A DNA stretch of 64,000 bases, from assembly GCF_004118155.1 (NCBI RefSeq), contig NZ_SAIQ01000002.1, positions 62,001 through 126,000 of the forward strand. The letters run 5' to 3'. The notes beneath the pieces are model-generated. The model had not been told where the DNA came from, ran no database searches, and saw nothing but the letters and a program-made list of their open reading frames with translations. The position numbers and the translations under genes were made by a program. The DNA is from Edaphocola flava. GTDB taxonomy: Bacteria > Bacteroidota > Bacteroidia > Chitinophagales > Chitinophagaceae. This document shows positions 1 through 5,380 of the stretch, piece by piece (the stretch's first letter is position 1; each line of letters opens with the position of its first letter).

Positions 1-490
1 TAAACGGGGCGGTCCACACACTGCGGCCGCTTACCGACATAGCCCCGAAGGTATCGCCATGATACGCATCTGTGAACGCCAGTATCTTCGTTTTCGGCAG
101 GCCTTTATTATATGACTGTTGCAGACACATCTTTAAGGCCACTTCTACCGCAGTAGAACCATTGTCAGAATAGAAAACCTTGCTTTGATTTTCGGGCAGT
201 AGCTCCAATAACCGCTCCGATAATACTATGGCGGGTTCATGGGTAAAACCCGCAAAGATCACCTGCTCCAGCGTATGCAATTGCTCCGAAACTTTCCGGG
301 CAATGTAGGGGTTTGCATGACCATGCAGGGTTACCCACCAGGAGGAAATCGCATCTATATAGCGATTTTCTTTATCATCATAGAGGTAAGCCCCCTCGCC
401 ACGAACAATAGGAACAGCCGCTGCCGCAGTCTGCATTTGCGTGTACGGGTGCCAGTTTACCTTCCGGTCCCGTTCACTTAATGTGCACAT
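1..490 (-). CDS. bioA: Adenosylmethionine-8-amino-7-oxononanoate aminotransferase BioA (C-terminus beyond window)
   Basis: This is the PLP enzyme that converts KAPA to DAPA in biotin synthesis with SAM as amino donor. About 163 N-terminal residues lie in the window. They show the family features WHPYTQM near the start, [15 protein letters not shown], the phosphate-binding [14 protein letters not shown] and [14 protein letters not shown]. The ATG lies inside the end of bioB, giving a 13-nt overlap in another frame, which suggests coupled translation. It is the fifth gene of the bio operon. The active-site lysine lies outside the window. Confidence 0.95.
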
Positions 491-1467
491 GTTGCCGCCT
501 CTTTTTGCAGTGGTTTCAGACCCAGGTTTTGCAGCATGAGCATGTCTTCTGAAATGCCCGGATTGGGTGTAACCAGGAGCGTCTCTCTTTCACCCGTAAA
601 GATAGAGTTGGCCCCGGCCATAAAGCACCATGCCTGCTCCGTTTCAGTCATTTCGATACGGCCGGCACTCAGTCTTACTGTTGCAGCTGGCATAATGATG
701 CGGGCAGTTGCGATCATGCGCACCATTTCCCAGGTATCCACTTTAGGATTATCTTCCAGTGGGGTGCCTTTTACACGGGCCAGTGCATTTACCGGAACAG
801 ATTCAGGATGTTTAGGCATAGTAGCCAGGGTGAGCAGCATCGCAATACGGTCCTGGTGCGTTTCTCCCAGACCTATGATACCACCGGAGCATACGGTAAT
901 GCCTGCCTTGCGTACATTGTTAATCGTATTGATGCGGTTGTCGAAAGTACGGGTAGAGATGATTTCGTTATAATACGCTTCTGAGGTGTCAAGATTATGA
1001 TTGTAAGCATGTAAGCCGGCTTCTTTCAATCTTTCTGCCTGGTCTTCTGTAAGCATACCCAGGGTACAGCATACTTCCATACCCATTTCATTTACCCCTT
1101 TTACCATATCAATAATGCGGTCAAAGTCCCGGTTGTTGCGCACTTCACGCCATGCAGCAGCCATACAGAAGCGGGTCGATCCGTTATCCTTCGCCTTTTG
1201 GGCATGCTCCAGTACTTTTTCCGTAGGCAGCAGTGCCTGTACTGTAATATCAGTATGATAACGGGCAGCTTGTCCGCAGTAAGAACAATCTTCTGGGCAG
1301 CCACCAGTTTTTACAGACAGCAGTGTACATACCTGTACGGCAGCTGCATCATGCCATTGACGGTGAACAGTTGCTGCCTGGTAGATCAGTTCCATCAGCG
1401 GTTGGTGATAGATAGCGTGGACTTCTTCTTTGGTCCAGTCGTTACGAATTGAGGTACTTTGTATCAT
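478..1467 (-). CDS. bioB: Biotin synthase BioB
   Basis: This radical-SAM enzyme inserts sulfur into dethiobiotin, the last step of biotin synthesis. The CxxxCxxC motif for the 4Fe-4S/SAM cluster is C57, C61, C64 ([12 protein letters not shown]). Conserved stretches follow: [40 protein letters not shown] and RLSAGR (the Arg ligand of the auxiliary cluster). The length of 329 aa is normal for the family. It lies 6 nt downstream of bioD and overlaps bioA by 13 nt, so all are probably read from one mRNA. Confidence 0.97.
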
Positions 1468-1473
1468 GTTAGT

Positions 1474-2097
1474 TTAAAAGAATTTGATTTGTTGTGCAGC
1501 AGCAGCAATCGTTTCAGGATTGATGTCTGCCAGTTCTGGTATGTGAATCGCACGGGCACTCCGCGGCAGGTGCTTGTACAGGACCCTGAACGTATCGGGA
1601 TCAAAATTGCCGTTGAATACCATATAGTCCAGCGGAATATTGCGCTGCTTCAGCGTTTCAATAGATAGTAAAGTATGGTTGATGCAACCCAGGTAATCCC
1701 TTGCCACCAGTGCCACCGGTGCATTGCATAATTGTATGAGGTCGATCATAAAATGATCATCGGACAATGGAACCCAGAGTCCACCAGCACCCTCGATCAG
1801 CAGTTGTTTCCGGCAATCCGGTACGGTAAAGTCCGAAAGCTTTATACTTATATTTTCCGCTGCAGCTGCATTATGTGGTGATGCTGCTTTTTGCAGGCGG
1901 TACCTTTCTGGATGTGTATGTATTTTGCCCGAACAAAGGGCGGATACCGTTATGCTGTCGGAGCAGTGCAGATCGCCTGCCTGTACCGGCTTCCAGTATT
2001 CCGCTTCAAAATGCAGGGCCAGTATCGCGGAGCAAATAGTCTTTCCTACGCCGGTACCGATACCACTGACGAATAAGGTCTCTCGTGTCATGTACAT
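1474..2097 (-). CDS. bioD: ATP-dependent dethiobiotin synthetase BioD
   Basis: It closes the ureido ring of DAPA with CO2 and ATP to give dethiobiotin. The P-loop is GIGTGVGKT at residues 12-20. WKPVQAG and the IEGAGGLWVPL segment are typical of the family. Its 207 aa is slightly short but within the family range. The start used is the first ATG, 3 nt after the bioF stop; the third codon is also ATG and could be the true start. It lies between bioF and bioB in the operon. Confidence 0.95.
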   Translation of the reverse strand: MYMTRETLFVSGIGTGVGKTICSAILALHFEAEYWKPVQAGDLHCSDSITVSALCSGKIHTHPERYRLQKAASPHNAAAAENISIKLSDFTVPDCRKQLLIEGAGGLWVPLSDDHFMIDLIQLCNAPVALVARDYLGCINHTLLSIETLKQRNIPLDYMVFNGNFDPDTFRVLYKHLPRSARAIHIPELADINPETIAAAAQQIKFF

Positions 2098-2100
2098 ATT

Positions 2101-3207
2101 TTATAAGAAAGCTGACACCGTTGTAGCCAGCAGCTCAATTTCATGGGGTAGGTTATAGCTGTGCAGGCATATCCTTAATCGCTCAGTACCTACCTGCACC
2201 GTAGGGCTGCATACGGCATAGCAGTTTATTCCCTCTTTCTGTAATGTTTGTTTCATTTTTTTGACTTCCTGCACGCCGGGGCAGTTAATAGTTTGTATTG
2301 GTCCCACCTGGTTTTGAGCACTTAGCTGATACCCTTTCCAATGCAGTATATTATCTTGTAATTGTTGTTGTGCTATGGCATCCGAAGACAAGAATGCATA
2401 AGCAGCCTTTATCGCGAGCCACTGGCTGTCAGGCGCAGCAGTGGTATAGATCAGCGGACTGGCTTTGTTGATCAGGTATTGTTTCACCGGTTCGGGACAC
2501 AATACCGCAGCACCATGACAGCCCATAGCCTTTCCATAAGTAATAGTAGTAGCCAGTACCCGCTCCTGTAAGGCAAGCTGGTGTACGAGTCCCAGGCCGA
2601 ATATGCCCATCGCATGTGCCTCATCTACAAGCAGAGCAGCTCCATACCGGGTACATAACTCCGCTATGTCCTGCAAGGGAGCCAGATCGCCATCCATAGA
2701 ATACAGGCTTTCGATACCTACAAAGCAATTACCGGAGGTCTTCTTAAGTTTGGATTCCAGGTCGTTGCAGTCATTATGCCGGAACTTCCATCGGGTGGCA
2801 GGTGAGAGGCGGCAGCCATCATGCACCGAACGGTGTATATACTCGTCCATGATAAGGGTGTCGCCCCGCTGCGGCAAGGCCGACCATAAGGCCAGGTTAG
2901 CCATATAGCCCGATGGAAATAATAATGCCGCAGCACTTTTGTGCTGCGCCGCAATGAAGGTCTCTGTATGCTCAGCCAGTAAAGAGTTGCCGCTGATCAG
3001 CCTGGAGCCTGTACTGCCGTAAAGTATTGCCGGGTTTGTTTGTATACATTGCACCAGCTGTTCGTGCAACTTGCTGTTCCGGGCAAAACCCAGGTAATCA
3101 TTAGAGCAAAAATCTATACCCGTTGCCGGTTGCTGCAGGCTTCTTAATGTCTGCAGACTGGCCGCGGTATCAAGATATTGGTCTATATGCCGGAGAATAT
3201 TATGCAT
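2101..3207 (-). CDS. bioF: 8-amino-7-oxononanoate synthase BioF
   Basis: This PLP-dependent alpha-oxoamine synthase condenses pimeloyl thioester with L-alanine to give KAPA, the first committed step of ring assembly. Visible features are FCSNDYLGFA near the N-terminus, YGSTGSRLISGN, DEAH at 195-198 and the Schiff-base lysine K226 in TYGKAMG. The length of 368 aa is typical. Its start codon lies 8 nt inside the end of the upstream ferritin-like gene, so translation of the two is probably coupled. Confidence 0.96.
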   Translation of the reverse strand: MHNILRHIDQYLDTAASLQTLRSLQQPATGIDFCSNDYLGFARNSKLHEQLVQCIQTNPAILYGSTGSRLISGNSLLAEHTETFIAAQHKSAAALLFPSGYMANLALWSALPQRGDTLIMDEYIHRSVHDGCRLSPATRWKFRHNDCNDLESKLKKTSGNCFVGIESLYSMDGDLAPLQDIAELCTRYGAALLVDEAHAMGIFGLGLVHQLALQERVLATTITYGKAMGCHGAAVLCPEPVKQYLINKASPLIYTTAAPDSQWLAIKAAYAFLSSDAIAQQQLQDNILHWKGYQLSAQNQVGPIQTINCPGVQEVKKMKQTLQKEGINCYAVCSPTVQVGTERLRICLHSYNLPHEIELLATTVSAFL

Positions 3208-3820
3208 ATGCCGGTTTTACCTCCTGTTGCAGGCACTCTGTCCATTGATTGAACAGCGTCTGTTCTATAGCGGCAACCGCGGCTGCATGTTCCTCCCATA
3301 CAGGAGAGAATCGCTGCAATTGCTGGATCATTTCTTCAAGATGCCCCGCTTCTTCCAGGATAATGGACTTTACCATTACCTTATGTCCTTGTTCAGTCAG
3401 TACCTGCTGGTAGACCGGATATAATTCATCTGCACGAACTTCTATGGCATAAGTCACAAACAGGTAAGCCGCATATTTAAGCGCTTTTCGGTCCAGTTGG
3501 AAATGTTGCAAGAGATATTTACAGGCCAGAATGTCTAGGCGATGCAGGTATTGGCGGGTAGCCACCGGAGCCAGTAAATGATCGGCATGATAGTCCGGGC
3601 AAAGTGCCGGATCTATCTTGTTAATCTGCTTTTTGAGATAATAAGCATGACGATGCTCTTCTGCAGCGTGTTTCAGCTGAATGATGTCTACCTCCGTTTC
3701 ATGCTCACAGGCCGATATTTTACGCGCACCGGCATTCTCCATGAAGGAAAGCGTGTTCAGCCAACGTGCGTGTAACTCCGGATTTGACGTGATCTGTTGC
3801 AGCAGTTCATAAAAGCTCAT
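3200..3820 (-). CDS. Ferritin-like (diiron-type) protein, first gene of the biotin operon
   Basis: A 206-aa, mostly helical protein of no family I can name. It has the four-helix diiron carboxylate pattern: E28 (FMENAGARKI), EEHRH at 54-58, a Glu in AIEVRADE (E127 or E132) and EEAGH at 156-160. That is two ExxH motifs plus two further Glu, as in ferritin-like oxidases and oxygenases. I chose the ATG at 3820; a longer reading frame upstream runs through the promoter and into the divergent gene. It overlaps bioF by 8 nt and leads the operon, which suggests a role in biotin formation. That role could be oxidative supply of the pimeloyl precursor, or iron supply for BioB. Function is inference; no signal peptide is visible. 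Confidence 0.8.
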   Translation of the reverse strand: MSFYELLQQITSNPELHARWLNTLSFMENAGARKISACEHETEVDIIQLKHAAEEHRHAYYLKKQINKIDPALCPDYHADHLLAPVATRQYLHRLDILACKYLLQHFQLDRKALKYAAYLFVTYAIEVRADELYPVYQQVLTEQGHKVMVKSIILEEAGHLEEMIQQLQRFSPVWEEHAAAVAAIEQTLFNQWTECLQQEVKPAYA

Positions 3821-3827
3821 AAGCGTA

Positions 3828-3840
3828 TTTTGCGCCAAAA
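3828..3840. promoter_or_regulatory. Palindrome over the bio promoter (candidate operator)
   Basis: TTTTG-CGC-CAAAA is an inverted repeat with 5-bp arms and a 3-bp centre. It overlaps the predicted -7 element and transcription start of the bio operon in the 63-bp gap to the MocR gene. It is a plausible binding site for that regulator, but this is inferred from position only. Confidence 0.35.
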
Positions 3841-3843
3841 GTA
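3836..3843 (-). promoter_or_regulatory. -7 promoter element of the bio operon
   Basis: TACTTTTG on the minus strand matches the Bacteroidota -7 consensus TAnnTTTG, 15 nt before the ferritin-like ATG. A clear -33 TTTG is not seen, so the promoter may need an activator. Confidence 0.5.
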
Positions 3844-3883
3844 GTATATTGCCGGTCTGTCTCGATGTGCCAGTTTTTATATT

Positions 3884-5380
3884 ATGAGTAGTCCGGTTGA
3901 AATACCATATAAGAGTTTTATACAAATCGTTCGTGACCTGGAGACCCCGATCTATATGCAGGTGACCCATCAGTTGATACAGGCGATACAGCGGGGCTAC
4001 CTGCCTGCCAACACCCGACTGCCGGGCACCAGGGCCCTGAGCGCTTTGCTGGATCTGCACCGGAATACCGTTGTGGCGGCTTATGAAGAACTGCTGACCC
4101 AGGGTTGGGTAGAGGCAAGACCCAATAAAGGAACCTTTGTTATAGGTATACCAGCCGGTAAGGGGCAGAAATTGTCCGGACTATCTGGTAGTGTCATTCC
4201 CTGGTCCGGATATCCACAGGAAACCGGCTTCACATTTCAGAAGACCAACCTGCTGGATAATCCTTTTGAGCATTCAGCATGCACCCATGTCTTTAATGAT
4301 GGTATACCCGATATCCGTTTATCGCATATCGATCAGCACTCCCGCTGGTACAGCGCACAGTTAAAACGGAGAAGCACTAAGAAAATGCTGGGGCACTATA
4401 ACCAGGACGGTAGTGAATTTTTTAAAAAGCATCTGGCCAATTACCTGAACCTGTCCAGGGGGCTGCATATCTCCCGTGAGAACCTGCTGATCACCCGCAG
4501 CACAGAAATGAGTATCTATATAGCTTCGGAAATATTGCTGAACAAAGGAGATATTGTACTGGTAGGGGAGTTGAGCTATTTTGCCAGCAATATGATTTTC
4601 CAAAAATCCGGTGCGGCGATCAAAACCGTATCCATAGATGAGGAAGGAATTGATGTGGCAGCAGTAAAAGCCATGTGTGAGCAATACCCTGTGCGTATGT
4701 TATACCTTACACCGCATCATCATTATCCCACGACGGTTACGCTTAGTGCTCAAAGGCGGCTTGCCTTGCTGGAGCTGGCTAAAACCTATGGCTTTATTAT
4801 CCTGGAGGATGATTATGATTACGACTTCCACTATGATAAAAATCCGGTATTGCCGCTGGCCAGTGCTGATACACATGGCATGGTAATCTACGTAGGTTCG
4901 TTTGGTAAATCACTGGCACCGGGCTTTCGTACCGGTTTTATTGTAGCGCCGCAGAACCTGATGGTGGAGATGCGCAAACTGCTGGGCATTATAGACCGGC
5001 AGGGAGATATCGTGATGGAGCAGGCCCTGGGCGAAATGATTGCCGAAGGGGAGATACACCGCTATCTGAAGAAATCACTGAAGATATATGAGCAACGCCG
5101 TGATGATTGTGCTGCGCTGTTACAGCAGTATCTTGGAGGCCATATACGCTTTCAGAAGCCTTCCGGAGGCCTGGCGATCTGGGCTGAATGGGCCGCACCT
5201 GTCAACCTGAGCCATGTCAGTAAAATCTGTGCCCGCAGCGATTTATTTATTCCCAAAACGATATTGTACCAAAACCGTAATATTACCGCTATGAGGCTGG
5301 GTTTTGGAGACCTGAACGCGACCGAAATGGAAAAGGCAATCGCTATTCTGGCGAAGGCAGTAAGTGACCTGGCTCGATAG
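3884..5380 (+). CDS. MocR-family regulator (GntR winged helix fused to class I aminotransferase fold)
   Basis: Residues about 15-90 form a GntR-type winged helix (TPIYMQVTHQLIQAI, LPGTRALSALLDLHRNTV, GTFVIG). Residues about 130-490 form a fold-type I aminotransferase domain with LEDDYDYDFHY and the PLP lysine K342 in SFGKSLAPGFRTG. Family members such as PdxR and GabR sense PLP or amino compounds and often control divergent genes. This gene diverges from the biotin operon across 63 bp, so control of that operon, which encodes two PLP enzymes, is a reasonable inference. Length of 498 aa is typical. Confidence 0.92.
   Translation: MSSPVEIPYKSFIQIVRDLETPIYMQVTHQLIQAIQRGYLPANTRLPGTRALSALLDLHRNTVVAAYEELLTQGWVEARPNKGTFVIGIPAGKGQKLSGLSGSVIPWSGYPQETGFTFQKTNLLDNPFEHSACTHVFNDGIPDIRLSHIDQHSRWYSAQLKRRSTKKMLGHYNQDGSEFFKKHLANYLNLSRGLHISRENLLITRSTEMSIYIASEILLNKGDIVLVGELSYFASNMIFQKSGAAIKTVSIDEEGIDVAAVKAMCEQYPVRMLYLTPHHHYPTTVTLSAQRRLALLELAKTYGFIILEDDYDYDFHYDKNPVLPLASADTHGMVIYVGSFGKSLAPGFRTGFIVAPQNLMVEMRKLLGIIDRQGDIVMEQALGEMIAEGEIHRYLKKSLKIYEQRRDDCAALLQQYLGGHIRFQKPSGGLAIWAEWAAPVNLSHVSKICARSDLFIPKTILYQNRNITAMRLGFGDLNATEMEKAIAILAKAVSDLAR

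Follow-up and report, generated by a model that had tools for sequence, protein, structure and literature searches.

The window analyzed here, a 64,000-nt stretch of the Edaphocola flava genome, carries the biotin genes bioE, bioF, bioD, bioB and bioA in that order, as a single run headed by bioE, with a MocR/GntR-type gene, bioL, diverging from it (Table 1). The preliminary description of this DNA had placed a 206-aa reading frame at the head of the biotin operon, in a promoter-proximal position and overlapping bioF by 8 nt, and all of this was confirmed: the minus-strand frame runs from an ATG at 3820 to a stop at 3200, no other gene of the run precedes it, its start codon lies 63 bp from that of the divergent MocR gene, and its 3′ end overlaps the start of bioF (3207) by 8 nt. 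The arrangement suggests that bioE-F-D-B-A is one transcript. Among the downstream genes, the bioF product has TIGR00858 as its best model at 303 bits, below the cut-off of 426, with PF00155 above cut-off, and bioA begins at a start codon at 490, its family match lying at G000:C8:61234-62454.

Table 1. Genes and predicted regulatory elements at the bioE–bioL locus (positions in the window).
Feature	Positions	Strand	Basis
bioA, 5′ part; gene runs past the window	1..490	-	TIGR00508, 543.6 bits, above cut-off 405
bioB, biotin synthase	478..1467	-	TIGR00433, 408.7 bits, above cut-off 225
bioD, dethiobiotin synthase	1474..2097	-	TIGR00347, 99 bits, above cut-off 83.3
bioF, 8-amino-7-oxononanoate synthase	2101..3207	-	TIGR00858 best model; operon position
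bioE, 206-aa diiron oxygenase, putatively pimeloyl-thioester-forming	3200..3820	-	ORF; six ligands at published BioE positions
Predicted bioE promoter -7 element, TACTTTTG (TAnnTTTG type)	3836..3843	-	Part of the same motif as the predicted operator
Predicted BioL operator, direct repeat ACTGGCAC-N10-ACCGGCAA, 18-bp period	3849..3874	-	Conserved motif
bioL, MocR/GntR-type PLP-binding repressor (by orthology), divergent from bioE	3884..5380	+	PF00392 and PF00155 above cut-off

Searches of Pfam and NCBIfam with the bioE product returned no family at its cut-off, the rubrerythrin family PF02915 giving a weak and partial match (16.8 bits vs. a cut-off of 22.8). Its AlphaFold2 model is all-helical (pLDDT 90.6, pTM 0.88), and Foldseek retrieved 383 matches from the PDB at E ≤ 10, with none at E ≤ 0.001. 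Among the 50 matches listed, the highest TM-scores (about 0.58–0.61) belong to haem-oxygenase-like proteins and to a MiaE-type hydroxylase—specifically, AetD and Sden_3740 near 0.58 (E 0.11 and 0.26, not significant) and the ferritin-like 2itb at 0.59/0.61 (E 0.96)—and an aldehyde-deformylating protein (5ux2; TM 0.43) is a weak lead. Since no family reached its cut-off and no PDB match was significant, fold comparison offers weak matches only toward a BioE identity. The chlamydial protein CADD, with which the preliminary description had drawn an analogy, has a PDB entry; phmmer against the PDB recovered no relevant chain up to E 10 and two unrelated matches at E 0.23, and the analogy thus finds no counterpart in sequence kinship. 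Plasmid records held no BioE homolog at E ≤ 1e-5.

A family that accounts for this protein has already been named and characterized in the 2025 literature. BioE is described as a ferritin-like diiron oxygenase that cleaves the C7–C8 bond of long-chain acyl-ACP or acyl-CoA to yield pimeloyl-ACP or pimeloyl-CoA (Zhang et al., Adv Sci 2025, PMC12915131), its discovery being credited there to a 2025 paper in PNAS, and Chitinophagaceae are listed among the families that carry it. For enzymes of relatives, the same source reports conversion of stearoyl-ACP to pimeloyl-ACP and undecanoic acid, abolition of function when ligands are mutated, about two Fe per CpBioE, a need for O2 and a reductant, and the ability of BioE to replace BioC–BioH in E. 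coli. Elizabethkingia lacking bioE is reported to be a biotin auxotroph (PMC12915131, section 2.2), the outcome that the preliminary description had set as a test of its proposal. BioE is also reported from Chryseobacterium, and its partner BioL is presented as a MocR repressor of biotin genes with 8-amino-7-oxononanoate as effector, a C. indologenes bioL mutant being a biotin auxotroph (PMC12915131).

The residues of the window protein follow this family closely. Each Glu and His position that had been proposed for a diiron site is present (E28, E54-E55-H56-R57-H58, E127, E132 and E156-E157-A-G-H160), and six of them—E28, E55, H58, E127, E157 and H160—are invariant across 91 BioE rows (89 different records, L010/L033 and L011/L035 being identical), as are E54, E156, H51 and D131. 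E132, in contrast, is kept in 83 of the 91 rows and is, for that reason, unlikely to be a ligand. The iron ligands given for EmBioE (E26, E53, H56, E125, E155 and H158; PMC12915131) map onto the six invariant positions, 6/6, at an offset of +2 throughout. Extended to 18 different residues listed for EmBioE, the comparison gives 17 agreements at +2, whereas the remaining offsets between -20 and +39 each give five or fewer; by class, six of seven CoA-face residues and all six inhibitor-pocket residues agree. Against CpBioE, the ligands again correspond (6/6, offset -13), together with 9 of 11 acyl-channel residues. Sequence identity was taken against a C. indologenes homolog (L086) from strain AA5, possibly not the studied strain, in place of EmBioE itself; the window protein shares 66% identity with this homolog over 206 aa, which exceeds the >40% identity and >85% coverage criterion of PMC12915131.

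The divergent gene encodes a 498-aa protein whose R50 and PLP lysine (K342) are invariant in 85 of 85 rows. The relatives that lie divergently from bioE are 57–98% identical to it, and its best NCBIfam model is PdxR (300.6 bits, just below the cut-off of 320) rather than a biotin regulator. Judged by these residues and by its context, the MocR protein of the window is an ortholog of BioL. Elsewhere in the same genome (G000:C8:661530-662996) lies a further MocR paralog, which shares 40% identity with BioL.

Linkage to biotin genes extends well beyond this locus. A scan of named genomes yielded 513 confirmed relatives, from which the best 80 loci were kept (71/80 titled Chryseobacterium) and their neighbors identified with six window proteins as queries. 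In these best 80 of 513, bioE has a divergent MocR neighbor no more than 400 nt away in 79, and bioF (78), bioD (78), bioB (80) and bioA (77) occur on the bioE strand. For the order, 396 genomes were sampled from a larger group and searched for BioE with the window protein alone (E ≤ 0.001). BioE was present in 11 and bioB in 171; every one of the 11 also carries bioB (hypergeometric p = 8e-5), and in 10 of them bioE sits among bio genes. The expectation that homologs would be found mostly with biotin genes is borne out by these counts. In the remaining genome (G311), bioE lies in a 16.5-kb stretch away from bio genes, next to what look like sugar-nucleotide genes by their first residues, and bioB is on another contig. 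A Sphingobacterium lumbrici locus (L076) holds a complete bioEFDBA, with a BioE 68% identical to that of the window and no MocR gene in its 12.6 kb.

Models of BioW, BioC and BioG were also searched against these genomes. BioW (PF03744) was found in none of the 396 at E ≤ 1e-10, the window's own genome included, and in 2 of 14 controls. The BioC model TIGR02072 reached at best 63.3 bits in the window's own genome against a cut-off of 184.95 and exceeded its cut-off in none of the 396, where six candidates were scored per listed genome and one weaker match appeared at E ≤ 1e-25; because just one of the 14 control genomes scored above the cut-off of this model, absence of BioC is weak evidence. 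BioG (PF04301) matched 0/396, but it matched no control either and is not used as evidence for that reason. Neither a BioE nor a BioW match was present in 160 of the 171 bioB-positive genomes, so another pimeloyl route probably exists in this order, by which most bioB-positive genomes appear to obtain pimeloyl.

A conserved motif was also recognized between the start codons of bioL and bioE. The consensus ACTGGCAC-N10-nCCGGCAA-N5-TAnnTTTG is exact in 71 of 85 bioL–bioE intergenic regions and present in a looser form in 83, which amounts to 69 and 81, respectively, of 83 records, all from related species whose agreement is not independent. Its last element, TAnnTTTG, has the form of the Bacteroidota -7 consensus. 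A degenerate pattern of the repeat has a single exact match in the 3.54-Mb genome. Read as a direct repeat, the best 8-mers agree at 6/8 positions vs. 5/8 for an inverted reading, which favors the former only slightly; MocR regulators often use direct repeats as operators (PMC5320631). We infer that the conserved site is a BioL operator, and, placed between two start codons, it could control both bioL and bioE. The two loci without the motif are from Chitinophaga (L054 and L104), where the bioL–bioE spacers of 121–122 bp contain several CCGG-type repeats, some in each orientation, which may form a BioL operator with multiple sites; there bioB follows bioE, and no bioF was detected in the 12.6 kb of the locus. 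Among the matches listed in a literature search there was no further BioE–BioL paper, and, while the PNAS discovery paper or the supplements of PMC12915131 may map an operator, the predicted operator and promoter add to the BioE–BioL description as cited here.

Because ligand residues, kinship and operon context all match the published family, we are highly confident that the window gene is bioE, encoding a diiron oxygenase that makes pimeloyl-ACP/CoA for BioF within a BioL-repressed operon. The helical model, the co-occurrence with bioB in the order, the lack of a BioW match at E ≤ 1e-10 and, more weakly, the lack of a BioC match over cut-off also speak for it. The suggestion in the preliminary description that the protein makes the pimeloyl precursor is thereby upheld by tests at both the residue and the operon level, and the protein is another ortholog of an established family. 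Its alternative suggestion, a role in supporting the iron–sulfur chemistry of BioB, gained no support. An accessory protein for BioB or BioF, engaged in iron or sulfur handling or in peroxide protection rather than in pimeloyl formation, would be in keeping with the weak rubrerythrin match and with the Chitinophaga-type loci in which bioE directly precedes bioB. Yet the acyl-channel residues reported to be needed in chlamydial BioE are kept in 9/11 cases, and replacement of BioC–BioH in E. coli (PMC12915131) is not expected of a BioB accessory, so that we regard such a role as very improbable.

We give still less credence to the idea that a CADD-like diiron oxygenase of the haem-oxygenase fold, with some other product and self-sacrificing chemistry of the pABA type, lies in the operon by chance. 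The TM-scores near 0.58 to AetD and Sden_3740 point that way at E-values that are not significant, but the MiaE-type ferritin-like hydroxylase does equally well by TM, phmmer gave no related PDB chain, and linkage to individual bio genes in 77–80 of the best 80 of 513 loci speaks against chance. The possibility that BioE in this genus has shifted to a different acyl substrate, pimeloyl arriving by an unrecognized route, draws on the many bioB-positive genomes of the order that have neither a BioE nor a BioW match and on the other route that is probable there. The ligands are all retained, as are almost all of the listed pocket residues, the intergenic site and the complete operon; this argues against such a shift, which we consider barely plausible.

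Under the preferred assignment as a pimeloyl-forming BioE, an all-helical, non-heme diiron enzyme would use O2 and electrons to cleave the C7–C8 bond of a long-chain acyl-ACP or acyl-CoA, the resulting pimeloyl-ACP/CoA would serve as the BioF substrate, and BioF, BioA, BioD and BioB from the same operon would complete biotin. BioL would repress the operon through the site between the bioE and bioL start codons and would probably respond to the BioF product, 8-amino-7-oxononanoate. By analogy with relatives, their reaction, metal content, mutant auxotrophy, repression and effector may be expected to hold in Edaphocola as well, and the window enzyme probably accepts acyl-CoA like that of Elizabethkingia. 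This places a gene that lies beyond the reach of Pfam and NCBIfam cut-offs in a named pathway step, and the residue signature together with the predicted operator provides a means of finding the BioE–BioL module.

The same bacterial family also contains a second BioE lineage, an addition to the published description as far as the cited text extends. Five genomes (G148, G303, G197, G285 and G311; loci L113–L117) encode a BioE 51–56% identical to that of the window with no MocR neighbor, arranged as bioB-F-D-A-E in three, as bioF-D-A-E in one and unlinked in one (G311, L117), so that bioE is the last gene of the bio cluster in four of the five. A genome-wide search with the window BioL recovered an ortholog of 60–65% identity in each of the two BioL-linked genomes used for comparison (G315 and G343). 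Of the BioL-less genomes, G148 yielded a relative of 24% identity, and the remaining four had no match at E ≤ 1e-20. In a tree built after dropping duplicates, 84 rows (L076 included) split from the five BioL-less rows with support of 100/99, though long branches meet among the latter and leave their order unsure, and the split alone is drawn on here.

The two groups also differ at the CoA face. Across the 85 rows with a MocR neighbor (L076 excluded), the residues are F26 (81), R/K33 (85), K34 (85), Q48 (85), R or K89 (70, with S in 15), Q90 (78) and H93 (82). In the BioL-less group, the five rows differ at four of these seven published positions, with M/L at 26, V/I at 48, H/Y/F/Y/M at 89 and H/Y/Y/Q/R at 90 (a difference in four of five), and retain R/K33, K34, H93 and all iron ligands. 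From two enzymes, Zhang et al. derived the idea that promiscuity of BioE, i.e., acceptance of acyl-CoA, creates the need for BioL, the chlamydial enzyme being acyl-ACP-only (PMC12915131); the BioL-less pattern fits this suggestion and is no proof of it. We hypothesize that one family may contain two BioE types, one linked to BioL and held by it at a conserved operator, with an EmBioE-like CoA face, the other BioL-less with a changed face, predicted to use acyl-ACP only and hence to need no repressor. We hold this to be rather unlikely. The Sphingobacterium lumbrici protein has the “linked” face and no MocR neighbor, three face positions (33, 34 and 93) are kept in the BioL-less rows, and the acyl-ACP-only chlamydial enzyme differs again at these positions (PMC12915131). 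If true, the two-type reading would extend the promiscuity-needs-BioL idea to relatives outside Chlamydia. The published speculation that acceptance of acyl-CoA by BioE calls for a repressor becomes testable across relatives. In Riemerella anatipestifer, said to be without bioC, bioH, bioI and bioW (PMC6168606), a “hypothetical protein” (AS87_RS09185) is numbered beside bioF, bioD and bioA, and by this position it may be a BioE of the BioL-less type.

Compared with the known systems, as far as they are described in PMC12915131, the window module most resembles that of Elizabethkingia meningoseptica and Chryseobacterium, with ligands, inhibitor pocket, six of seven CoA-face residues, bio operon and MocR regulator alike. 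It differs from EmBioE at the CoA face, where K46 is replaced by Q48 (Q48 in 85/85 rows with a MocR neighbor), and in operon layout, as bioEFD and bioBA are treated as separately promoted in E. meningoseptica whereas bioE-F-D-B-A form a single run here. The Chlamydia psittaci enzyme shares the six ligands and 9/11 acyl-channel residues but only 2/6 carrier-face residues, and the chlamydial bioE loci are described as being without BioL, whereas the window bioE has a BioL ortholog. BioI of Bacillus subtilis, a haem P450, belongs to an unrelated protein family. The window BioL resembles the published protein in its GntR and aminotransferase-like domains, R50, PLP lysine (residue 342 vs. 340 in EmBioL) and bioE-adjacent position, and, while the published BioL probes of ~50 bp are called palindromic, the site in the window reads as a direct repeat.
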